64,000 nt of DNA. It comes from Polytrichum commune. Lineage: Eukaryota; Streptophyta; Polytrichopsida; Polytrichales; Polytrichaceae. The DNA lies in the NCBI GenBank assembly GCA_950295325.1, contig OX485803.1, positions 36,223,554 to 36,287,553 on the forward strand, written 5' to 3'. Position numbers and translations under genes: made by a program. Position 1 is the first letter of the stretch. Every line of letters starts with the position of its first letter. The notes below the pieces were generated by a model. That model did not search any database and was not told the DNA's origin. It saw only the letters and a list, made by a program, of their open reading frames with translations. Below are positions 41,060 through 64,000 of the stretch, one piece after another.

Positions 41060-41800
41060 GCTATAAATTATACACAATGAACTAAAAATAAGAAAGATAC
41101 ATCAAATTAAAGTTTGTTGGGTTTAGGCCCAACAAGCTTCAAATACAAATTACTTTCACATATCAACTTCATAATTTTAAAAAAAAAAAAATGCAAAGGA
41201 GGACTTAAATGATGCGCTTCCAATGAGCCTAAAATTATACACATTAGATTATATATGAAGAAGATATCTCAAATTGAAGCTTGCTAAGTTTAGGTCCAGC
41301 AAATTTCAAACACGAATTACTTTCACATACCAACTTCATAATGTTTTTAAACATATACAAAGCAACGCCTTATTATTACGCTTCCAGTGAGCCAAAAATC
41401 ATACACAATAGACTAAGAATAAGAAAGATACATCAAATTAAAGCTTGTTGGGTTTAGGCCTAGCAAGCTTCAAACACAAATTACTTTCACATATAATCTT
41501 TATATATATATATATTTAAAGAAGCGCTTTAAAAATACGCTCCTAATGAGCCTAAAATCATATACAATGATCTCCATATGAGAAAGGCATCTCAATTTGA
41601 AGGTTGTTAAGCCTAAATCCAATAAGCTTCAAATATCAATAATTTTTTTATATGAAGTACTGACAAAATATTAAAGGGATCTCTAGGAGCGCCTTCAAAA
41701 TAATGAGACAAAAATCATAAAGAATAAAGAATATATAAGAGAAAAATCGCAATTTAAGCTTGTTGGGCCTAAACCCAACAAGTTTCAAACTTTTATAAGT
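41060..41800. repeat. Five-unit ~160-bp tandem array
   Basis: Units centred on GCTTGTTGGGTTTAGGCCCA-like palindromes at about 41114, 41279, 41444, 41604 and 41758 (spacing 165, 165, 160, 154). Each is followed by ACAAGCTTCAAA.ACAAATTA and ACTTTCACATA, and preceded by AAGAAAGATACATCAAATTA. The TTGTTGGGTTTAGGCCCAACAA core can form an 8-9 bp stem. Confidence 0.8.
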
Positions 41801-44217: not shown

Positions 44218-47200
44218 ATGGAGCTTTCCGTGCGTTCAAGTTGTTTTGCAAGGCAATTAGGAGCCTCTGTATCCCTTCGGGCTGCAATCGGTGGGCCAGC
44301 CTTTGGTGCCCAAATTAGGGGTTTCCAAGGAAAATGGAAGAAGAGCAGACTAGTTTCTACTTCTTTCGCTTCCCAAAAACATGCTCGGTGGCAGGTTTTG
44401 TGTGCAGTGTCACAGGATGCATCACAGGAAGTGGTGGGCGGGGATATGAATGTGAAGGGATTAGAAGAGAGGAGAGTGGACGATGATGGCTTTACCCGGT
44501 CGAAGATGGCAGTGTTTGTGTCTGGAGGGGGTTCCAATTTCCGAGCCATCCATGCTGGTTGTTTGAGCAATCAGATTTATGGTGACATTGCTATTGTGGT
44601 TTCAGATAAACCTGGTGAATTCCTCATCCTCTTTGTTTTTCTGTGGTGAAATGACGATTTCACAGATTTGTGGTCCTTGTAGATGTGTAGTAGTTCTTCA
44701 TTTCGCAGCGTCTGTTTCCACTTTCAATTAGATTTGCTTTCGTAAAACCTGAGATTATAGAATACATGTTGTGGATGTGACATTTACATGTTCCACTTAC
44801 ATCATTGTTGATGTAGGTGGACTTGTTGGTGTTATTGACCCTATGAATGTGTGGATGTCGTTATGGAGTTCGTGTTGTGTTGTAAGCAGTTTCTTTCGGA
44901 ACAGAGTTTCTTGCTCCAAAAGCTGATCGTTTTTCGTTGGGTAGGTTGCGATGGTCTCCATCATGCGTTGGATAAGGAGATTATGGAGTTCATGTTGTGT
45001 TTGAATTAGGAGTTTCTTGTCATAAAACACGATCGTTTTTCGTGGGGTAGGTTACAAAGGTTGTGCTCATGCGAGGGTTAATCATATTAGTGAGTACATG
45101 TTGTGTCGTAAGCAGTTTGTTGGAATTAGAGGTTCTTATCACAGAATGACTGCTTTGTGTGGGGTAGGTTGCAAGGGTTGCGTCTATGCAAGAGATAATG
45201 AGATGGTGTTGTGCTTGATTATGCAAGACATAATGAGATTTTGGAGTACATGTTGTGCTGTGAGCAGTTAGTATTGAATTAGAGTTTCTTGTGACAAAAT
45301 CTGATCGTGTTGTATTTGTGGGATAGGTTGCAAGGGTTGCGATTATGCAAGAGACAATAACATCGATGTTGTGGCTTATCCAAAGGGAAAGCATGCACCA
45401 GAGGGGGTTTCTCCAACTGAGCTAGTAGACTCTCTCAGGTGCATCATCTCTACCATCTGGTTTGCAAGCCTACTGATATCTTAACCTTGGCTGTAGTAAC
45501 TTACATGTGGACATGACAACTGTCATATCTTCTTATTGGCTTGCCAAAGTTTTGAAGTGTATTTCACAAAAAGTCATTGAAGTTGCTGACTGGTGATCAA
45601 GGAATGGAGGTTGAGTTACATTACTTATTGTAGACGTGCAGGTGTTGAGTATATCCTCTTGGCTGGCTATCTGAGACTCCTTCCAAGTGAGCTGGTCCAG
45701 GGCTATCCGCGTGCTATTCTCAACATTCATCCGGCCCTGCTTCCTGCCTTTGGGGGAAAAGGCTACTATGGTGCAAAAGTACATGAAGCTGTTATTCGCT
45801 CAGGTGCCCGGTAAGCAACTATATGCTCATGCTCTCTTGTATTACTGTACATTGATGTCTGGTTCAGGACTTTTGAGTGCTGAAAGGTGCTTTCCATGTA
45901 GGATTTAGTAGGTCTTTGTCAATGTGAGTACAACACATGTCAAAGTTCTAAAAAATGTATGTCTAATTATATAGCACCTTACAGTAATCAGATTATTGAG
46001 TTGCATGTGAAAGAGTACAGTTAAGGGACCTGTCTATTAGGCATGTTCACTACTTCAGTGCAAGTTCTCCTTCCTTGGATGGGCCATTGCTGGCTTTATG
46101 TACGAAGATGCACTGTCTACGATCTGAACAGTTTTGAAACCAGTTTCAGAACCTGGGTTCAAAATTGTTCAATTGGTAGTTCAAGCCCAGTTTCAGAATA
46201 TAGTGTTGAGGTTGAAGATGGTACAGTGTAGACTACCCATTTAAATCTACACCTGGAGTCATTTGTGTATTGGCAATGATACTCAAGATTATTACAGTTT
46301 TTTTGACCATGTTCTTGATGGCTAATTGTTGTGTGAGCCAATGACATCACACTCATCATTGGTATTGTTTACCTGTTGCTATTTTCAAAGGTGCAGTGAC
46401 CTTCCCACCATTTGTCCAAAAAGCTGGTCAAATCTAGTCTTGAAATGAGTCTTGTGGGTCTGAAGTACTTGGATTGGAACCAGTCTGTCTATCTGGAATT
46501 AAGAAATTTATTAATGCAACCAATCTTCCAGCTGCAATTTTCCTATTCTTTTGGTTGTAATTTTGGTCACTTACAAATCACCTAGCAAGGGTCTACTTCT
46601 AACAGTGGCTTATGTGGCGGTGATGGTTTATATCACAGTTTGTCTGAGCAAGACTTTGACGAAAACTATATATTTTCTGAGCCAATTTGAAACTTTCAGA
46701 CCTGTTTTCAAGTCTGCAGCTGTAGGTGTCTGTTTTGTGAGCAATTTTTCAATTTTTTTGTGGGTTGTAGTTTAGTTCAGCTGTAGGTGTTTAGTTTTGT
46801 GGGTCAAGTTTTGATAGTGGGCTATATGGCGCTGATGCTTTATATCACAGTTTGTCTGAGCAAGCTTTGACGAAAACTATATATTTTCTGAGCCAATTTA
46901 AAACTTTCAGACATGGTTTCAAGTCTGCAGCAATAGGTGTCTGTTTTTGTGAGCTTTTTATTTTAAAATCTTATTTTAGTTTTAATTTTAAATTTTTTGG
47001 TAGGTTGTAGTTTTTGTCACCTCAGTTCACCTAGCAAGGCTCAACGTCTGATAGTTCGCTTATGTGGCACTGATGCTTTATATCACAGTTTGTCTGAGCA
47101 AGCTTTGACGAAAACTATATATTTTCTGAGCCAATTCAAAACTTTCAAACATGGTTCCAAGTCTGCAGCAATGGGTGTCTGTTTTTGTGAGCAAATTATC

Positions 47201-48718
47201 TTTTTTTTTGTAGGTTGTAGTTTTTGTCATCTCAGTTCACCCAGCAAGGCTCAACTTCTGATAGTTCGCTTATGTGGCGCTGATGCTTTATATCACAGTT
47301 TGTCTGAGCAAGCTTTGACGAAAAACTATACTTTTTCTGAGCCAATTCAAAACTTTCAGACATGGTTTCAAGTCTGCAGCAATGGGTGTCTGTTTTTGTG
47401 AGCAAATTATCTTTTTTTTTGTAGGTTGTAGTTTTTGTCACCTCATTTCACCCAGCAAGGCTCAACTTCTGATAGTTCGCTTATGTGGCGCTGATGCTTT
47501 ATATCACAGTTTGTCTGAGCAAGCTTTGACGAAAAACTATACTCTTTCTGAGCCAATTCAAAACTTTCAGACATGGTTTCAAGTCTGCAGCAATGGGTGT
47601 CTGTTTTTGTGAGAAAATCTTCCTTCTTTTGTAGGGTGTAGTTTTTATCACCTCAGTTCAGCTAAGAAGGGTTAATTTTTCACGCTGGGTATATGGGGTG
47701 CTGATGCTTTATATTACAGTTTGTCTGGACGAGTCTTTGATGAAAACTATTATTATCTGAGCCATTTTAAAACTTTCAGGCATGGATTTGAGTCTGCAAC
47801 AGTGGGTATCTGTTTATTTTTTTGTTACTTTAGGGTGGTTCATCCAGCAGTGGGCATCTTTTGACGTTGGGTTTGTGCGGCACTGATGCTTGATATCACA
47901 GTTTGTGTGAGCGAAGTCTTTGATGACAACCGAATCTCTGAGCCGCTTACACCAATAATTGCCTCAAAAGAAACTGCTCTAGATTTTCCTGTTGTATGAC
48001 ACTTTTGCAGTCAAATTTTGTCTGTACTAATCCCCTCAATTGAGTTCAAAAATGTTGTATAGAAGTCAATTCGGCTGGCTGTGATGGTATACTCCATTTA
48101 CTTCACAGTTTGTCTGAAACATGGATTGGTTTTACAGTATATCTGAGCCATGTCAATATTATGGAGTGCACCACCTTAAAGGTCTGTGGTTCCAGATATT
48201 CATTAATTTTGGTGTAGACACTATAAACGAGTCTGCTGTTTGAAATGATAATATTGAACATATTATGCAGCTCACAATTTTGGGGTCAAAGAACAGAATT
48301 TGGAAGTGATGTAGTATCAAATATTTCTTGAGTTTCTAGAGACTGTGAATACAATTTTCTGGGGTGTTGGACAGATATTCTGGTGCAACTATTCACTTCG
48401 TAGATGAGAAGTACGACAGTGGTCCTATTCTCGCACAGAGAGTTGTTCCTGTGCGAGCTGATGATACTCCATCTGATTTGGCTGCCCGAGTGCTAAAAGA
48501 GGTGTGCTTTCTTCTCATTTCTTTCATTCAATTTAATTCAGTGCCGATCTTCAAGCAAATTAAAATTCGTATGTCATCAACTCATAGAATGTTGGTGTCC
48601 TCAGGAGCACAAAATGTACACGGAAGCAGTGTCAGCATTATGTGAGGATCGAATATTCTGGCGGGAGGATGGTGTGCCATTGATACGTAAGTCGTGGAAT
48701 GAAGCAGAGTACTTGTGA
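44218..48718 (+). CDS. Phosphoribosylglycinamide formyltransferase, plastid type, 5 exons
   Basis: PurN-family enzyme that transfers a formyl group from 10-formyl-THF to GAR, the third step of purine synthesis, which runs in plastids in plants. Exons: 44218-44614, 45327-45438, 45634-45810, 48375-48501, 48605-48718. All introns are GT-AG, phases agree, total 308 residues. Residues 1 to about 95 are Ser/Arg/Ala rich and resemble a transit peptide. The catalytic domain starts at KMAVFVSGGGSNF (about 97-108). NIHPALLP gives catalytic Asn200 and His202, and HFVDEKYDSGPILAQ gives Asp243, matching Asn106/His108/Asp144 of the E. coli enzyme. The product ends EDGVPLIRKSWNEAEYL. The start is the first ATG of the open frame, preceded by a telo-box region. 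Introns 1 and 3 carry tandem arrays described separately. It appears intact. Confidence 0.95.
44812..45326. repeat. Tandem copies of the exon 2 acceptor region in intron 1
   Basis: Four diverged units begin near 44812, 44940, 45043 and 45160 and lead into the real acceptor at 45326/45327. Each has a GTAGGTTGCAAGG-like acceptor followed by sequence resembling the first part of exon 2, then GAGT.CATGTTGTG and GAGTTTCTTG blocks. The copy at 45160-45205 matches exon 2 for about 35 nt (GGTTGC.TATGCAAGAGA). Its frame then runs into a stop. Long antisense frames here are by-products of the repeat. Confidence 0.8.
46545..48150. repeat. ~210-bp tandem array in intron 3 of the GAR formyltransferase gene
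   Basis: Seven or eight units are marked by TATATCACAGTTTGTCTGAG variants at 46629, 46840, 47079, 47288, 47500, 47710, 47892 and a degraded one near 48100. The period is about 208-212 bp in the centre. The two units at 47211-47421 and 47422-47632 are nearly identical, and the outer ones are more diverged, as expected for expansion from the middle. Each unit contains AACTTTCAGACATGGTTTCA. Open frames across it are not coding evidence. Confidence 0.85.
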
Positions 48719-55800: not shown

Positions 55801-57240
55801 CCATAGCTATAATCCTACGATTCATCTCTATCTCTTGCTCCAAGCCTATAGCTTGCGCTAGCTCTCACTAGCTCTCACACCTATAATCTGATTTTTCTAA
55901 TCCAAATGATACGTCTTTCTCGTAAGAGCGACCTTCCTTATCGCCAGACCTCTCCGGCAACCACCAATAGGCTGACAATCGTAGGCAACCAGATATAGCC
56001 TCTGATTCACACTACATTTAGCTTTAGGATGTCATTTCGAATCAATTTTCTAGTAATTCATTTTCTGCTGCTAGTAGGAACAACCTATAGCCAAAAAATT
56101 CATACTACACTTCCCAAGGCCATCTAAAATATGTGATTGGCTGTTGAACTCGTCTCGGGGCCACTTTGGTTTACAAGAAGGAAAAAAAATAAATGTGAGA
56201 GTGACCATGGAGTTCGAGGTCCCCCAAAAACATATTTTAAGGCCTACATTATCCCACTAACATGGTCCAACGGGTTTTGCGGTGGGAGAGGCAAAAGAGA
56301 TACTCTTATAGAAAAAAGCAAGGGGGTGGTAGAGAAACATTTTTGTATAATATTTTTTTAATGAATATTGTTTTTGGGAAAGAAGATGAAGACAAGAAAA
56401 TAGTCAAACTTGATATTCTTTTTCTTTCTTTCAAAACTATCATTCTGGAGCATATATCAAAAAAAAATTATATAAAAAAATCTGCACATTGACTTTTTGG
56501 TGCATTTTCATTCCTCTTGATCCACATTTGGTTTACACCTAGTGAAGAGCCCATAGACTTTGTAAATTGATTCGTTAAAAAGTCGGACCAAGAAAGTCGG
56601 ACCATGAAACAAGGCCATCTTCCATGGTCCGACTTCATGGTCCATGGTGTAAACCGTCCCTTAGATGGACCCAGTCCGAGTATGGATGTGTTGACCTTAG
56701 TTGAGGCTGATGCATGGGTGACACCAAACCCCCCCAATTAAAGATGATCCGGAGAGCTCCAAAGATAGTAACTTAGTCCGAGAGACCCAAAAATGCTTTG
56801 GGGACCCCACTTTCCACACGGGCCAATTGCTGTCCCATGTGACACAAGCACACCCACTGACAATTTATATTTAATTACCTAGACACCACCTTGAAACATG
56901 AAGCTCTTGAACGTGCTATCTTATTACCTATGTTTGGGGAAAACCGACGGCTACTTCATTATCAGCCGATGGATTTCCCCTCATGGCCGGTCCAAATTTC
57001 CAACCATCGGATGGCAATCCGACTGTAATTTCAATCTTCCGGCAATGAGCCGATGGACCAGAAAATGTCCCGGAAATGTAGCCGATTCTTCTTGTGAGTT
57101 ATTGGATTTCAGCCAGAAGCATCCAGAGCGCTATTTGTCTGGGGCATCTGATGATGCACTTGCGGAAGTACCCTAAACCTTAAACTTTTTGAATTATGCA
57201 ACCTTTCCATGACCAAATCCAATTGCTTCTATGAAGAATT
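52851..57240. other. Intergenic, no gene seen
   Basis: A CT microsatellite at 53597-53620, CCCA repeats at 55066-55081 and a hairpin at 56597-56632 (AGTCGGACCATG/CATGGTCCGACT). An open frame at 56898-57176 (92 codons) has no recognised motif. Confidence 0.5.
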
Positions 57241-57244
57241 GGGG

Positions 57245-57300
57245 GACCCTTGGCCTTCAAGCGGTGAAGACATTGCTAGGTTCAATTCCTGCCAAGGATA
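57245..57300 (+). repeat. Possible tRNA-derived SINE head
   Basis: TTGGCCTTCAAGCGGTGAAG resembles a Pol III A box, and GGTTCAATTCC about 30 nt downstream (57282-57292) fits a B box. The cloverleaf is not complete, so it is not called as a tRNA gene. Similar isolated B boxes occur on the minus strand at 18429-18439 and 24133-24143. Confidence 0.3.
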
Positions 57301-57582
57301 TTAACTCTTCAAATTTAAAGTTTTGAACATGCCTTTCTTTTCACTTATTCAAGATTTTGTACTAAGAAATGATTTCTAATAACTTTTCATACATTTTTAA
57401 AACAATTAGTGCCGATATGAATTCCATTTAATCGGATATTGGCCAATGAAAAATATGAAAATATAGGCAATTGGCTGATTGATTTTACAAAAGACCAGCT
57501 CTTGCCAATGTAAATTGGAAAAAATCCGACCCTTCGTAGCAACTACCGACAATTAGCCACTAAGGCTTCAAAAACTTCCTGA

Positions 57583-58521
57583 CGTACGTTAAGGGCAGCT
57601 TCGGCACAAAATAATTCTAAAAATAGACGCCCAAATTTTTGGAATATTATTGTCATTTTTTGACGAATATAAAATTAATTATTTTTCAAAATTGCCGAAA
57701 AGTAAGAAATTTTTACTTCTCACTAGAGTTTTACTTACAGTGGAAGCATATGTGAATTTTGAAAGAGAGAAGGTGCTCCTTTTGTAATCAAGCTCACTTA
57801 CATTAGTCCACAAAGAATATGGGTTAAGAAGTAGCAAGACTCTAGGTGAGGCTTTTCAAATGTGTTGTACACAAATTTTTGGAGTCCAATTGAGCATAGA
57901 AGATGAAGTTTTATAGGATTTTGTCCAACTAACAAAAGTTGAGAAATCAATCCTTCTTCCACCTCCAACAAGTTTTGTGTCAAAATAAGTCTTTATGCAA
58001 AAGATATGGACAAAACATTGCAGCCGTGTAAAGATCAAAAAATTAAAATGCGTTCATAACAGTTTTTCGGAGCTCATTTGTGCATAGAAGATCAACTTTT
58101 TTGGAATTTGTTGGTCTAAGAACAGTTTAGAAATCAAGTAATCTTTCACCTCCAACAAATTTTATGTCATTTGAAGACTCTATGCAAATGTTATGCGAGT
58201 TATAAAAATGAAGTCTAACTCGGTGCTTCACCTCAAAGTTTACATATCCCATATGCATTGTTGAACACAACTCCACTCTATTTGCATAAAGCACAGAGCA
58301 ATCTCTACTCTTCACTCATATCTTACTTGTCATTCAATGCAAGAGAGATGTACAAGATATAAGCTTAAATAGAAAATGAAAAATGAATTTAAGCTGAATT
58401 TTAAAAATTAAAAGAGAAAATTGCCAAAAATATGAATATACTATTTCTAGGTGCCGAACACTATTTTTTTACTTTTAATAATTATTCGGCAAGAGAGCGC
58501 CGAAGCTGCCCTTAACGTACG
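57583..58521. mobile_element. Non-autonomous DNA transposon with perfect 23-bp TIRs
   Basis: The left end CGTACGTTAAGGGCAGCTTC+GGC (57583-57605) is the exact reverse complement of 58499-58521. The 939-bp element has no transposase frame. It contains an internal direct duplication (about 57895-58000 and 58085-58190, sharing CCACCTCCAACAA.TTTTGTGTC). TTAAGGGC inside the TIR would fit a TTA target site of PIF/Harbinger type, but the symmetry extends further outward, so the exact ends and target duplication are unsettled. Confidence 0.8.
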
Positions 58522-58623
58522 GTATTACCACCTTCAAACAATGCGCCTAATGCAAGGTCCAAGATGCCAATAGTAGTGCCCGTGAAGTTTTAGGGCATAG
58601 TTGGTCAAGATCCTAGTGTTTCT

Positions 58624-58779
58624 AAGGGCCACTTCACACTATGGCCGTCAAAGTCGAGAGGCCGTGGGATTGAGTGGCCAAGCTTTATTGAGAGCCCAAA
58701 GAAATGGGCTGAAAATACATAGCCAATAAAATAATAGGAATTCGGAGCCTTCGGCCAGGCATAGTGTGAAGCCTCCAAA
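58624..58779. mobile_element. Short MITE immediately upstream of the retroelement
   Basis: GGGCCACTTCACACTATGGCC at the left and the complement of GGCTTCACACTATGCCTGGCC at the right form imperfect TIRs of a ~155-bp element. A TAA precedes the left end. Related ends (TAAGGGCCACTTCACAC) occur at 36366, which fits a Tourist-like family. Confidence 0.55.
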
Positions 58780-59579
58780 GTGTCACGTGAGGTGACATCG
58801 GGGGCTAAGTTACGTCAATTTAGGAGTAAATGGACTCCATTAGGAGTGCATGTGTGTTGGGATGAATAACGGACTCCATTGGGAGTCCTAGTTAGTTGTT
58901 CATCCACTCCATGGATGAACTCCACATAGGATTGGGGTTGTATGGAGAGGAAGGCCCCTTGACTTGCCATTGTTGTCAAGTCAAGTCTTGTGAGTATGTT
59001 TTGAGAGAGAGAGAGCTTGTTGTTGCTTTCTCATGGCTACGGTGTAGTAGATTATGAGTAAAACCTTTGCATTCTTTCTTCACCACTTGCACTCTTGGAT
59101 TCTCCCTTCGTGGAGTGAGAGATAGCTTGACTCTTGTGTGTGAATTTTAGAGTTTCTTAAGCTTTATAAGGAGACATTTTAGTTTCTTAAGCTTTGAGAG
59201 AGAAACCCTCATACTTGACAACAATGGCTCAAATTTTTCATTTTTTGGTTGTATTTCTGAGCTAGAATGGCCCAGTATTGAGAGCAAATGAGTGATACAA
59301 GTGTTTGAAAGCTTAGTTTGTCATTTCTTGCAGCCCTCAAGAAGATTTTGAGAGAAATCTTCCCATTTTTCTTTTGTTGTCTCTTTGTGTTTTCTTCAAG
59401 TGTTGATGGTTGAATCTTGAGATTCCATTTGGTCTTAAGATTCTCAAGTCACATTATTCTTGCTTGCAATTTGTAAAAGCAAAGTTTTTTTTAAAAAAAT
59501 TTTTTTACAAACAAACACAAACCAAACTTACAATCCGAATTTTTTATAATTTTTTTTGAGCTCCGGAGCTCCACGGACA

Positions 59580-59745
59580 CTCTTGGAGCTCCAATTCTGC
59601 ACCCGGGGGCGGCAAAATCCCGGGCCGGGGGCGGGCGGGCGGCGCCAGCCGGGCCCCGCGGCGAGGTGGCAGCGGGCGGGCGACAGCCTGGCCGAGGTGG
59701 CAGGCGGCGCCAGCCTGGCCCCCCCTTAAATTGCGGCTCCATGGC
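59580..59745. other. GC-rich, CpG-rich block in the retroelement leader
   Basis: A ~165-bp block of G/C runs (GGGCGGGCGGGCGGCGCCAG, and GAGGTGGCAG repeated at about 59663 and 59693) sits in an otherwise AT-rich window, about 750 bp upstream of the gag ATG. CpG dinucleotides are frequent. It is followed by a low-complexity TTAATTAA-type tract (59765-59960). It may be a promoter-like or structured leader element. Open frames in it on the minus strand are Pro/Ala/Arg low complexity. Confidence 0.7.
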
Positions 59746-60035
59746 GGCTTCAAGGTAAGCCTCCCTTAATTAGGCTAGTTAACTTAATTAACTTAATTAA
59801 CTTAGTTAATTAAATTAGGTTAGCTTAATTAGGTTAGGTTCATTAGTTTAAATTAATTAAGTTAGGTTGAGTTAAATTAAATTATTTAAGTTAATTCATT
59901 TAAGTTAATTAAGTTAATTAAGTTTATTTTTATTTTTATTTTTGTTTAATTAAAACAAATATTTTTATTTTATTTTATTTTATTTTCATATTTTTCCTTT
60001 CACCTTTCAAACTTGGCATCCAATTCTCACAAACT

Positions 60036-60335
60036 TTGAGGTTCAAATTTGGGGGCATACTAGCTCCGATTGGAGTGAAATTTGAGCCTATCTTGTGTGA
60101 AATTTGCCAAGGAATCCAATGGTGTAATTGGATTGTTGATTGGAATTCAAAATCATTGCTGAAATTATTAATTTCAACGCTGATTTTTGTTTTTGGGAGC
60201 AAATTAACTCCGAACGGAGTGAAATTTGAGCCTAATTTGTGTGAAATCTTCCTAGGAGTCCATTGGTGCACTTAGTTTGTTGATTGGAGTCCATAATCAC
60301 CTTGGAAATGAGCCTTTTCAACGCTGATTTTTCAT
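60036..60335. repeat. Two-unit direct repeat in the retroelement leader
   Basis: Units at about 60036-60190 and 60190-60335 share CCGA.TGGAGTGAAATTTGA, CAATGGTG/CATTGGTG, GTTGATTGGA and TTTCAACGCTGATTTTT. The offset is about 150 bp. It lies just before gag and could be part of the packaging or LTR/leader region. Confidence 0.7.
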
Positions 60336-60487
60336 TTTAATTACCAATCTCAAACCTTTGCACAATTTTGGAATTCTGGGGGCATAAACACTTGGCATTT
60401 GGCAAGGGATTGCCATTTAGATAGCCCACAACAGGTGCAGGTTGCCATTACCTTGTAGATAGTTGCAGGTACTCAAGTGATTATTTT

Positions 60488-61186
60488 ATGGTGCAAACTA
60501 GGAGCCGATATTATCGATCTCCATCACCAGATTACTTGGAGGACGTGCATACCACAAATCTTGAGCCAGAGGTAGATACCAACGAGGCTTTTGAGCCTAT
60601 TTCGGCGTTGGACACTACTAGTAGGCTTCAAATTTGGAGTGTCGGCACGTTCGACGAAATGGAGGACGATCGCCACAATTCAGTGCGTGATCGGTTTTCA
60701 GGTCGAGCTGGGGGCATTTCCTTGCCCGATTGGAAACTCCGGTTTCGTACCTGGATTAAGGAGAAACGCCAAAGGTCTTCCAATTTCAATGATTGGTATG
60801 CCTTTGAACTTCTGCCTCAACATTTGGAGTATGAGGCACTCCAAACTTATGAACGCTGGACAGAGGGTCATCAGCGACAACTTTGGGAGGTGGAGCAGTA
60901 TTGGGAGGCTCGGGTTGAGCTCATTTCAACCCTTAAGGATGGGGCGGTTGCTACCTTAGCTCCACCCACCTTAAAGGAGGAGGAATCGCCGGCGGAGTCT
61001 AAGGACACGGAACTGGCACTTGGGCCAATGGTGGCTAGCAGTAGCACGGCAACCCTTTCACGGGTGGCACGTGCTACACAGGCAACATTGATAGCTGTTG
61101 GTCCACCACCTCCGTTTGATCCCCTTACTGAATTTGTCGCACATTTGGAAGTGGAGTATGGTGGGTTTCGGCGAGACCAGATGTAG
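60488..61186 (+). CDS. Retroelement Gag, N-terminal part, ending at an in-frame TAG
   Basis: 232 residues from ATG (MVQTRSRYYRSPSP). The body is Trp/Arg/Glu rich (WKLRFRTWIKEKRQRSS) and has a Pro/Ala/Thr-rich stretch near 175-215. The frame meets TAG at 61184-61186 and continues in the same frame through typical Gag helical sequence (RIQDFRREKDD, LVKIFLSKIDKRLLEL), so the stop most simply interrupts a single Gag-Pro-MTase polyprotein. CAG to TAG by cytosine deamination would explain it. Programmed read-through is possible, but the downstream context (CGC ATC) is not one of the well-known strong read-through contexts. Nothing here resembles a host gene. Confidence 0.8.
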   Translation: MVQTRSRYYRSPSPDYLEDVHTTNLEPEVDTNEAFEPISALDTTSRLQIWSVGTFDEMEDDRHNSVRDRFSGRAGGISLPDWKLRFRTWIKEKRQRSSNFNDWYAFELLPQHLEYEALQTYERWTEGHQRQLWEVEQYWEARVELISTLKDGAVATLAPPTLKEEESPAESKDTELALGPMVASSSTATLSRVARATQATLIAVGPPPPFDPLTEFVAHLEVEYGGFRRDQM

Positions 61187-63427
61187 CGCATCCAGGATTT
61201 CCGCCGAGAGAAGGATGATAGTCCACGGACCATGTATACGCGACTCGCACGATTTGCTGTGGAGTCGGGAGGTGTTTTTGCTGAGAGTCAGCTTGTTAAA
61301 ATCTTTTTGTCTAAGATTGACAAGCGGCTACTTGAGTTGGCATCACCTCGGATTATCCTCGACTACGAGGGCCGAGCTACGCTTGCACAAGCATTTGCCG
61401 TGGTTGAGAGATGTGATCGGGCTCTTTGCCAACATGATGCCACGGATATGGTATCTTGGACGACAGAGAGTCCGAAATCAAGAAGAATTGTCACAGCTAC
61501 TAGTAGTTTAGCTGAGACTCAATCCGTCAAGGAGCAAAAGATTTTGCATTGTTGGGGTTGTGGAGAAGCTGGTCATTCGAAGAATGATCCCAATTGTCCT
61601 AAGAAGAAGAAAACTCAACCTTTGGGAAAATTAAAACAAAAGATGGAACCAGTAAAGGCAGGGGACAATTCTAAGAAGAGACAATTGAAATGTAACCATT
61701 GTGGTGGCACTAATCACGATGTGGATCATTGTTTCCAACTTCATCCTGAGATGCGGCCTGCCAGTTATGTCACTGGAAAGTCTCTAAGGGAGCAGAGTCT
61801 TGAGGCTAAGGTGGCAGAGCTTGAGCAAAAGCTCAAACCTTCTGCATCTTTTGCTCAAATTTCTGAGCCGCATGTGGGTGGTGGCACCTCGGGTTTGGAC
61901 ATGTATATGTTTGGAGCAGCTGGAGAGGTGGTGGCGGCGGCTTCTACTCGCTCACAAACATTGGCAGATGCGGTGGCTTCCACGAGTGGTGGTAGCAACG
62001 AGGTGCTACATCCTCGCCATGCCGGACCAGCTGATCAAATTGGTCAAGCATGTTTACCTCTTTCATTTGGATTGGTAGACACCACTGTTGTTGGGGCTAA
62101 AAACCCTGTACCTTTGAGAGATGGGGATTCCATCTCGAAGGATGTTACGCAGGCATTGGCATATAAAATTCTCCATATGCCAATTTTCTCGGGTTTGGAA
62201 TTTATGGCTTCGGATTTCAAGCCTGCTGCAGTTTTTCATTTAGCTGGGAGAATGTTAGAAGGTAAGGCGGATTTGCCATCCCTTCAAGTATCCCAAGCTG
62301 TGGTTGACGTACCTGTGGCTGAGGAGGTGGAGGACTTAGCCAATTTGCGAGCGAGTCTTGCGGATGCGGCGATCATTGCTTTTGGTAAGCAAACTGTTAT
62401 TCCTCCAGCATCAATTTCAGCAGTGGATACGTCATTTTCGAATTATGCGTCGGGAGCGGCATATCTTGCAGACATTTCTGCAAGGCCTGCTCGCGAACGG
62501 CATAATTTGCAACCTGGAGTTGTACGGCTGATGAACGACAAATCTTTGTTTGTCGTTTCACGCACGGATATGCCCACTATCCGTGCTACACCACTGAGAG
62601 TTATGATGGATTCCGGTGCTCAACCGGTTATGATTGGCAAAGGACTTGCTGACAGTCTTGGATTGACGCCAGTAAGCTTAGATCCTTGTCCATTCACTAT
62701 TGTGACTTCAGTAGGGGGCACTGAACGTGCAACAGGTTACACCAATGCACCTTTACGTTTGATTTTTCATGTGGGGGCAGGGCCTACTTACATTCATTTG
62801 TCAATGAAGTGTGTTGTTACTAATGCTACCAACTATGATATACTTGTTGGTCAGCAAGCTTTTTACCCACTTGGCTTTGGTTTGGATAATTGGATGGAAG
62901 AGGCATGGATTAGACCGGGATGGTCCACTAGAGATGGCAGGAAGGTATTTATTCCCGTCACATTTGCAGCCACTGCTATGACTATGGTTGCGGAGGCAAT
63001 GTTTGGTTGCAGCGGTTCAGTTGCAGATTTGCCTTGTGCTCCAGTTTTATTGGAGGAAACAATGGACTACACTTGTAATGCGGCAGAACAACAATTTTTA
63101 CCATCTTTTCAAATTCCTGCTCGACATTTCAAGGATCCACCTCCACCATGGCGAACTCCTAAGGAGTTATCCGACCATTGTCAACACATTGTAGCGGATT
63201 TGGAGCTTGGAGAGGCACCCCCAACTTCATCCTCATTTTCTTTTGCTCAACCCATTCGTTGGCAACCATCACCTGAAGGTATTGTCCTTGTGGAGATCTT
63301 TGGAGGCATTGGCACAGGTTTGGCGGCAGTGTTGGAAGCTGGAATTACAGTTGGCGATATATTAATGTGGACAATGGGTATGCAGCCAACAGAGCCGTCC
63401 GACACCACATCCAACAATTGTTGTTGA
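61187..63427 (+). CDS. Retroelement Gag C-terminus, CCHC knuckles, retropepsin, start of DNA methyltransferase
   Basis: First ATG after the stop is 61232 (731 residues to 63427). Counting from it: Gag helices about 1-75. A first knuckle CWGCGEAGHSKNDPNC at 107-122 has an unusual spacing (CX2CX4HX6C). A canonical second knuckle CNHCGGTNHDVDHC spans 154-167. A linker follows with Gly/Ser and Ala-rich segments. A retropepsin has VMMDSGAQPV with active Asp460 and NYDILVGQQAF at about 534-544. From 685 comes VLVEIFGGIGTGLAAVLEAG, motif I of C5-DNA methyltransferases. The last ~20 residues before the stop are out of frame: the methyltransferase continues in the next frame from 63367. In related elements the knuckles bind RNA and the protease processes the polyprotein. 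Confidence 0.85.
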   Translation, partial: RIQDFRREKDDSPRTMYTRLARFAVESGGVFAESQLVKIFLSKIDKRLLELASPRIILDYEGRATLAQAFAVVERCDRALCQHDATDMVSWTTESPKSRRIVTATSSLAETQSVKEQKILHCWGCGEAGHSKNDPNCPKKKKTQPLGKLKQKMEPVKAGDNSKKRQLKCNHCGGTNHDVDHCFQLHPEMRPASYVTGKSLREQSLEAKVAELEQKLKPSASFAQISEPHVGGGTSGLDMYMFGAAGEVVAAASTRSQTLADAVASTSGGSNEVLHPRHAGPADQIGQACLPLSFGLVDTTVVGAKNPVPLRDGDSISKDVTQALAYKILHMPIFSGLEFMASDFKPAAVFHLAGRMLEGKADLPSLQVSQAVVDVPVAEEVEDLANLRASLADAAIIAFGKQTVIPPASISAVDTSFSNYASGAAYLADISARPARERHNLQPGVVRLMNDKSLFVVSRTDMPTIRATPLRVMMDSGAQPVMIGKGLADSLGLTPVSLDPCPFTIVTSVGGTERATGYTNAPLRLIFHVGAGPTYIHLSMKCVVTNATNYDILVGQQAFYPLGFGLDNWMEEAWIRPGWSTRDGRKVFIPVTFAATAMTMVAEAMFGCSGSVADLPCAPVLLEETMDYTCNAAEQQFLPSFQIPARHFKDPPPPWRTPKELSDHCQHIVADLELGEAPPTSSSFSFAQPIRWQPSPEGIVLVEIFGGIGTGLAAVLEAGITVGDILMWTMGMQPTEPSDTTSNNCC

Positions 63428-64000
63428 GATACCCCGCACAATTGTCAGCCTCTGCCATTCATGGATGTTGTGGTCAACTTCCTCAAGATGTCACTATGAT
63501 TAGTGATGAGGATTTGAGAAGGTTGGGCCACGTGGATTTGATTATTGCAGGATGGCCTTGTCAAGGCCATTCGCGGGCAGGAATTGGCCAGGGATTGGAT
63601 GACCCTAGATCTAGTTTGTTTGCGGATTTGATGCGATTGACGCAATGGTGGTTTACCCACCAATCAACTCCGCCAGGGTATATTTTCGAAAATATACCAT
63701 TATTGGGTGATACACGGCACAAAGTGGTGAAGGATGGTGAGTACATTAACCAAATTCTGGGTACTCCAACATTTCTGGATGCTGCATCTTTGGGATCCTT
63801 TGCTCATCGGCCTCGTTGGTTTTGGACAAACTTGGTATCATCTCGGGTGCTTTCAACGGCGATTGCCCGCATTCCCCGCCTTATGGATCGCAAGGTGGAT
63901 GACATTTTAGATGATCATCGTGTTTCCTTGGCAGTTACCAAGGATGATACCTTGCCATTTGCATTAATTAACAAGGTGGGCATTCCGAGAGGTGCACTAC
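63284..64000 (+). CDS. C5-cytosine DNA methyltransferase domain carried by the retroelement (partial)
   Basis: Motif I (EIFGGIGTG, 63293-63319) for S-adenosylmethionine binding is in the upstream frame. The rest is in the frame beginning GTG GAC at 63367 and stays open for 211 codons to the window end. VDNGYAANRAV (63367-63399) fits motif II. AGWPCQGHSRAG holds the catalytic Cys (codon 63559-63561, motif IV). FENIP (63685-63699) fits motif VI. AHRPRWFWTN (63802-63831) resembles the motif VIII segment of DNMT3/DRM-type enzymes (HRARYFW). PCQ is instead typical of DNMT1 and bacterial enzymes, so the subfamily needs a tree. Motifs IX and X would lie beyond the window. The break between 63357 and 63366 is best explained by loss of one base. 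Confidence 0.88.

Follow-up and report, generated by a model that had tools for sequence, protein, structure and literature searches.

How does a cytosine-5 (C5) DNA methyltransferase (MTase) come to stand behind gag and protease (Pro) sequences in a land plant, and what would it do there? Transposons are usually the targets of methylation, and an element that ships its own MTase reverses this relation. The locus that raises the question lies at the 3' end of a 64,000-nucleotide stretch of Polytrichum commune DNA (the window; C1:36223554-36287553 of a 407.8-Mb assembly of 64 contigs). We read it as a degenerate land-plant element of the Ty3/gypsy type, proposed to methylate its own DNA, in which the first open reading frame (ORF1) codes for Gag, Pro and a DNMT3-type MTase and ends in a stop codon of the leaky type, followed by a Pol that ends in a PHD finger. 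The identity of the element is nearly certain, and self-methylation as the main role of the enzyme has somewhat less than an even chance.

All coding features of the copy in the window lie on the forward strand. The N-terminal part of Gag (MVQTRSRYYRSPSPDY...; 60488..61183), whose N-terminus is common to the related proteins P0055, P0066 and P0067, is closed by an in-frame TAG (61184..61186) at a site that is open in the related contig L030 and in protein P0054. The open frame 61187-63424 then carries the end of gag, the zinc knuckles, the protease and motif I of the MTase. The C-terminal part of Gag and a linker, recognized by similarity to L030 ORF1 (approximately 61187..62500), contain a first knuckle with non-canonical spacing (CWGCGEAGHSKNDPNC, 61550-61597) and a second of the form CX2CX4HX4C (CNHCGGTNHDVDHC, 61691-61732). 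The retropepsin-like aspartic protease (approximately 62579..62900) has the motifs DSGAQP (62609-62626) and NYDILVGQQ (62831-62857), and the N-terminal piece of the MTase (63245..63352), with the SAM-binding motif I VEIFGGIGTG (63290-63319), is still in the frame of 61187. A frameshift near 63352/63355 places the remaining MTase (63355..63999), with WPCQGH (63553-63570), ENIP (63688-63699) and HRPRWFW (63805-63825), in another frame, which runs past the window. This shifted piece matches PF00145 (DNA_methylase) above the cut-off (E 9.8e-12), in the kind of C5-MTase profile search that a preliminary description of this DNA had suggested. Asp_protease_2 reaches 21.7 bits, under the curated cut-off of 24.3, and the knuckle matches are weak; both hold likewise for P0054 and L030, and P0075 has one knuckle above the Pfam cut-off. 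The preliminary description had the motifs and the domain order right, and its distance of about 225 codons from the protease Asp to the MTase agrees with the 227 residues that separate the first residue of DSGA from that of motif I. Its single reading frame does not hold, given the gag TAG and the frameshift, and the element begins upstream of its 61187. Further stops lie at window-equivalent positions 64066, 65254, 67528 and 67606; the one at 64582 is the ORF1 stop, which is present also in L030. The window copy, with its gag stop, MTase frameshift and later stops, is degenerate and dead.

The next 9 kb of the host contig (within L033, C1:36286554-36296553) carry the end of the MTase, the ORF1 stop TAACAATCA and then, by tblastn, reverse transcriptase (RT), RNase H, integrase and a PHD finger, so that the element reaches about 4.1 kb beyond the window edge. 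Because Pol follows the MTase in the host genome, the locus is a retroelement rather than a gene of the host. The best comparison is L030, a 9285-base contig (CADCWO010000201.1) from a scan of GTDB contigs, filed under the cyanobacterial metagenome-assembled genome (MAG) AVDCRST_MAG81 and most likely plant DNA that was binned with it. Its ORF1, open from the contig edge, codes for 1162 aa of unbroken Gag-Pro-MTase, to which window 61037-63352 is 55% identical and the MTase piece 63355-63999 is 68% identical. After TAGCAATCA comes ORF2 (1047 aa) in the same frame, with Pfam matches to RT_RNaseH (1.8e-38), RVT_1 (4.3e-31), Integrase_H2C2 (9.6e-18), rve (1.2e-13) and PHD (4.3e-10); the Pol of the host contig is 85.7% identical to it over 1016 aa. 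Gag-Pro followed by RT, RNase H and integrase, the order of Ty3/gypsy elements, is thus found in L030 by Pfam and in the host contig by tblastn. The tyrosine recombinase of DIRS elements (PF00589) has no match in L030 at E <= 1, with rve and Integrase_H2C2 found instead, and the chromodomain of chromoviruses has none there at the same threshold, the PHD finger being present. Third-position divergence between the host copy (window 61187-63999 plus L033 1585-4500) and L030 is 0.665 in gag-pro, 0.591 in the MTase and 0.487 in Pol; such regional differences could arise, for one, if element lineages had recombined. Another member of the group, P0081, is filed under a Candidatus Obscuribacterales MAG, and for both P0081 and L030 contamination is the probable explanation.

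The same arrangement recurs in many other sequences. At E <= 0.001 the MTase piece found 52 related proteins and a 16-sequence profile found 177, of which 120 were listed, so the finding is far beyond chance. A search with gag-pro gave 13. Gag, protease and MTase follow one another within single proteins in P0054 (1252 aa) and P0066-P0073 (1330-1376 aa), and the Gag-Pro-MTase ORF is unbroken in L030, P0054, P0066-P0077 and P0079. In all 15 long proteins checked the protease motif is present together with motifs IV, VI and VIII of the MTase, and motif I was found by pattern in 14 of them (not in P0078). P0053, which stands for 48 clustered sequences, is 95% identical to the gag-pro frame of the window over 73% of that frame and is open across the site of the window frameshift. 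The 120-aa P0025, part of an MTase, shares 92 residues with the window copy at 88% identity; it is not encoded in the window and therefore comes from another copy. The MTase is not always in the same place. P0108 has MTase, RT, RNase H and an integrase cut by the protein end in one ORF, and P0154 (2119 aa, on a 21-kb contig) has RT and RNase H, an MTase-like stretch (38% identity by BLAST, no PF00145 match), an integrase and, near its end, a PHD finger; compared with the Pol of L030, that of P0108 is 58% and that of P0154 43-44% identical. In P0034 the MTase is joined to the integrase after an apparent frame change and deletion. Unbroken relatives of the same domain order, together with the Pol continuation, bear out the earlier claim of a retroelement polyprotein with a built-in C5-MTase and contradict the outcome named as its refutation, a unique host gene between unrelated flanks.

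Among the matches listed are five proteins of the liverwort Marchantia polymorpha (P0085, P0089, P0090, P0091 and P0094), comprising Mp_4g09160, Mp_6g11220, MARPO_0008s0049, MARPO_0204s0011 and MARPO_0020s0163. They are named as hypothetical proteins, one also as 'CCHC-type domai..', and look like products of this element group. They are 36-42% identical to P0060 and, in the MTase domain, 44-49% identical to L030, and differ from the other members in forming a separate clade in the MTase tree. Mp_4g09160 keeps the knuckle, DSGA and the MTase motifs in one 1278-aa protein, whereas Mp_6g11220 is without the WPCQ motif and continues into RT sequence. As M. polymorpha is genetically tractable, these relatives would make the purpose of the enzyme directly testable.

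The MTase is of the DNMT3 type both by profile and by predicted fold, and among C5-methyltransferases of known structure it is closest to DNMT3; a search of the PDB with a single sequence gave no match at 0.001, and a profile was needed. Motifs I, IV, VI, VIII and X are in the canonical, unpermuted order, with a catalytic PCQ/PCN; both the window copy and the relatives have motif I ahead of IV-X, so the rearranged order of DRM enzymes is not what we found. DUF3444, a trait of plant DNMT3, is missing from both ORFs of L030 at E <= 1. The catalytic Cys is kept in 106 of 110 rows, the motif VI Glu in 92 of 99 and the His of motif VIII in 97 of 98 (counting rows that have a residue at the position), and mean pairwise identity among 14 relatives is nearly as high in the MTase (0.691) as in the protease (0.735). 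From this conservation we can predict that the enzyme is likely to be catalytically active in intact relatives. In a tree of 41 of the 47 near-complete domains (P0005, P0006, P0084, P0086, P0107 and P0109 were left out), the window piece groups with P0065 (100/96), and P0108, P0154 and P0114 form one clade (97/95). A phage or bacterial origin was rejected: a first viral scan with a single protein gave 6 pattern matches and no relative, a further scan matched 29 viral contigs (3 of them without a usable ORF), and in the tree the other 26 phage enzymes are separated from the elements by a split (100/100) at which long branches meet. The DNMT3A row, pieced from three parts, was placed among the elements on a very long branch, and the tree was not used for placing the capture.

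The context of the ORF1 stop is TAG-CAATCA in L030 and TAA-CAATCA in the window copy, with ORF2 following in the same frame in both. CAATCA conforms to CAR-YYA, the hexamer that follows the leaky stop of TMV and is reported to be essential (PMC2754532), and is thus a type I readthrough context. All three stops are decoded in this context in plants (PMC2754532), and here the context is the same at the two sites although the stop codon differs. By our own arithmetic, with equal bases, a chance match to CAR-YYA is expected at about 1 in 512 sites. Rice gypsy elements are among the readthrough candidates of the same paper, so readthrough in a gypsy element is not in itself new. We consider it likely that the ORF1 stop would be read through.

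From this layout we propose that most translation would yield Gag-Pro-MTase and a minority, reading through the stop, Gag-Pro-MTase-Pol. Ahead of the leaky stop, the MTase would be made in Gag-like abundance and be present in the particle where the cDNA is made, where it could methylate the new DNA of the element before or at integration, and the PHD finger may guide the integrase to a chromatin mark. The layout thus gives a concrete hypothesis, a Gag-level dose of MTase in the particle, to which an enzyme encoded in the Pol ORF would not lead. A wider version, tentative and on balance doubtful, would be an old green-plant lineage of gypsy type, with MTase and PHD finger as standard equipment, that spread in bryophytes; the bryophyte MTase would be a Gag-level particle component before a leaky stop, methylating cDNA, the MTase would have moved in some members (in P0108 it precedes RT, in P0154 it follows RNase H and precedes the integrase), and the ends would be DIRS-like split repeats combined with a DDE integrase.

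Several observations weigh against our reading. The window copy is itself unable to work. Its CpG observed/expected values (0.67, 0.78) are not below that of the rest of the window (0.45) and are just 0.06 under those of L030 (0.73, 0.84), so we rejected CpG depletion as a methylation footprint, there being no special mark of long methylation in the copy. No pair of long terminal repeats (LTRs) was seen in comparisons of 57001-64000 with L033 and of 58501-60487 with L033 4601-5400, so that the proposed 3' extension, successful for RT, RNase H and integrase, did not yield the second LTR. Close copies were absent from a sample of 20 host stretches of 10 kb each, all from contig C1 and together 200 kb of 408 Mb, which exclude very high abundance only; the sole match in them was a 30%-identity RT match (L053). 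The stop context is known from two related DNA sequences only, P0108 runs from MTase to integrase in one ORF with no stop between, and P0089, known as a gene model, passes from the MTase into RT sequence without a stop. The catalytic Cys is missing in 4 of 110 rows, and in yeast no methylation came from the enzyme of KnitGypsy-Dnmt3, an element found in the charophyte Klebsormidium nitens, a result that its authors call inconclusive (PMC5890265).

The yeast result would also suit an MTase that serves the polyprotein structurally or by binding nucleic acid and is no active enzyme, which we find improbable given how well the catalytic residues are kept and how near the conservation of the domain is to that of the protease. 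An active enzyme could alternatively work on host chromatin or genes, by creating a methylation landscape that favors integration or by interfering with silencing, and not on the cDNA of the element. DNMT3-type enzymes work on chromatin, and the PHD finger on the integrase hints at chromatin contact; effects on the host epigenome are also discussed by de Mendoza et al. (PMC5890265). That the MTase belongs to the Gag-Pro frame and is not attached to the integrase suggests a role in the particle, and we consider the host-chromatin role unlikely. Defense of the host cell against DNA viruses, a speculation made for transposon-encoded methylases (PMC6338049), is very improbable: no sequence feature points to defense, and the same paper argues for a loss of such elements in land plants, which is contradicted here for bryophytes. 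We give almost no credence to a host MTase gene beside an unrelated retroelement fragment, or to a one-off chimera. The single copy seen in the host would fit either, as would the broken frame that in the window separates gag-pro from the larger part of the MTase, but the unbroken ORFs of the relatives repeat the domain order and Pol adjoins in both the host and L030, and the host gene was rejected.

The element has published counterparts. DNMT-bearing retrotransposons have been described for dinoflagellates and Klebsormidium (PMC5890265), in agreement with the precedents named in the preliminary description; streptophytes and dinoflagellates were named again as carriers in 2025 (PMC12344493), and such elements are said to be absent from land plants, such as tracheophytes (PMC6338049). 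KnitGypsy-Dnmt3 is likewise a gypsy-type LTR element with a DNMT3-type MTase in its polyprotein, for which several copies and purifying selection are reported (PMC5890265); among the papers searched, the name KnitGypsy appears in this one alone. Compared by description, its MTase is in the Pol ORF, whereas in L030 and the window copy it ends before the same-frame stop that closes the Gag-Pro ORF; P0108 would have the KnitGypsy-type placement. The repeats of KnitGypsy-Dnmt3 are DIRS-like according to a figure legend (PMC5890265), and the Pol of the present element ends in a PHD finger. In dinoflagellates, SymbioDIRS-Dnmt3 and SymbioLINE-Dnmt are also retrotransposons with captured DNMTs, those of SymbioDIRS being of the DNMT3 type and active in yeast (PMC5890265), but they are DIRS (tyrosine recombinase) and LINE elements, unlike the present one with its DDE integrase and retropepsin. 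Plant DNMT3 (the PpDNMT3a/b type) shares the DNMT3-type catalytic domain in unrearranged order and differs by domain content, as it carries DUF3444 (PMC6453930). Gypsy elements of orchids that carry an m6A-demethylase domain (PMC9289625) are plant Ty3/gypsy elements that also acquired a nucleic-acid modification enzyme, there an RNA demethylase-like domain in an extra ORF and here a DNA MTase in the Gag-Pro frame. The main text of a plant survey (PMC6317226) contains neither 'methyltransferase' nor 'PHD', and we recognized no report of this element in land plants in the literature searched, which consisted of open-licence papers. As far as these searches reach, the land-plant members, the MTase in the Gag-Pro frame and the leaky-type stop before a PHD-tailed Pol are new.

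The ends of the element are less regular than its coding part. Non-coding similarity to L030 starts, by BLAST, at window 58957, and TGTCACG lies 170-176 bases ahead of this point in the window copy and in L030 alike. An upstream repeat (58620-58779) has an 84% identical relative (L041 9522-9679) at a distance of about 6 Mb on this contig, which diverges after ..CCTCCAAA. Because TGTCACG stands at a matching distance in L030 and the relative of the upstream repeat continues differently, the 5' end is most likely at 58781, from which the 5' non-coding end (LTR/5' leader, forward strand, 58781..60487) would start with TGTCACGTG and extend to the gag start codon. On the 3' side, similarity to L030 ends near L033 5145, where a foldback repeat starts, and the element is possibly truncated there. 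The two ends of L030 share 127 identical bases, as expected of an LTR and of split repeats alike, and the contig joins the 3' end of the element straight to its 5' end (..ACACGACAGCTGTCACGG..). Compared with a DIRS-like A-coding-B-A-B layout, the window copy shows A-coding-B only. Given the DIRS-like repeats described for KnitGypsy-Dnmt3, unusual ends may be typical of the whole group. CAAAG occurs on both sides of the element, in the 4-5 bp range of a Ty3/gypsy target-site duplication; the two flanks resemble different repeats and thus show no empty site, and we dropped it as a target duplication since the 5' flank resembles another repeat. The foldback (L033 5145-5852; arms of about 210 bp, 84% identical, with relatives in L043 and L045) was rejected as an interrupted target, the 5' flank scoring 31 against the other arm compared with a mean of 27 and a maximum of 44 for shuffled sequences.

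No second copy of the element lies within the 64-kb window. The element's 5' leader contains a tandem duplication of about 144 bp (60048-60332, 79% matches), and a perfect 22-nt palindrome lies within the MTase coding sequence (63677-63698). Flanking ORFs match Malectin_like and RCC1, with formyl transferase weakly matched just below the cut-off; with liverwort proteins as the closest relatives that carry an organism name, this would suit a bryophyte host, perhaps a moss. Elsewhere in the window, tandem arrays occupy 46553-47815 and 41065-41493, with periods of 211/449 bp and 164 bp, respectively.

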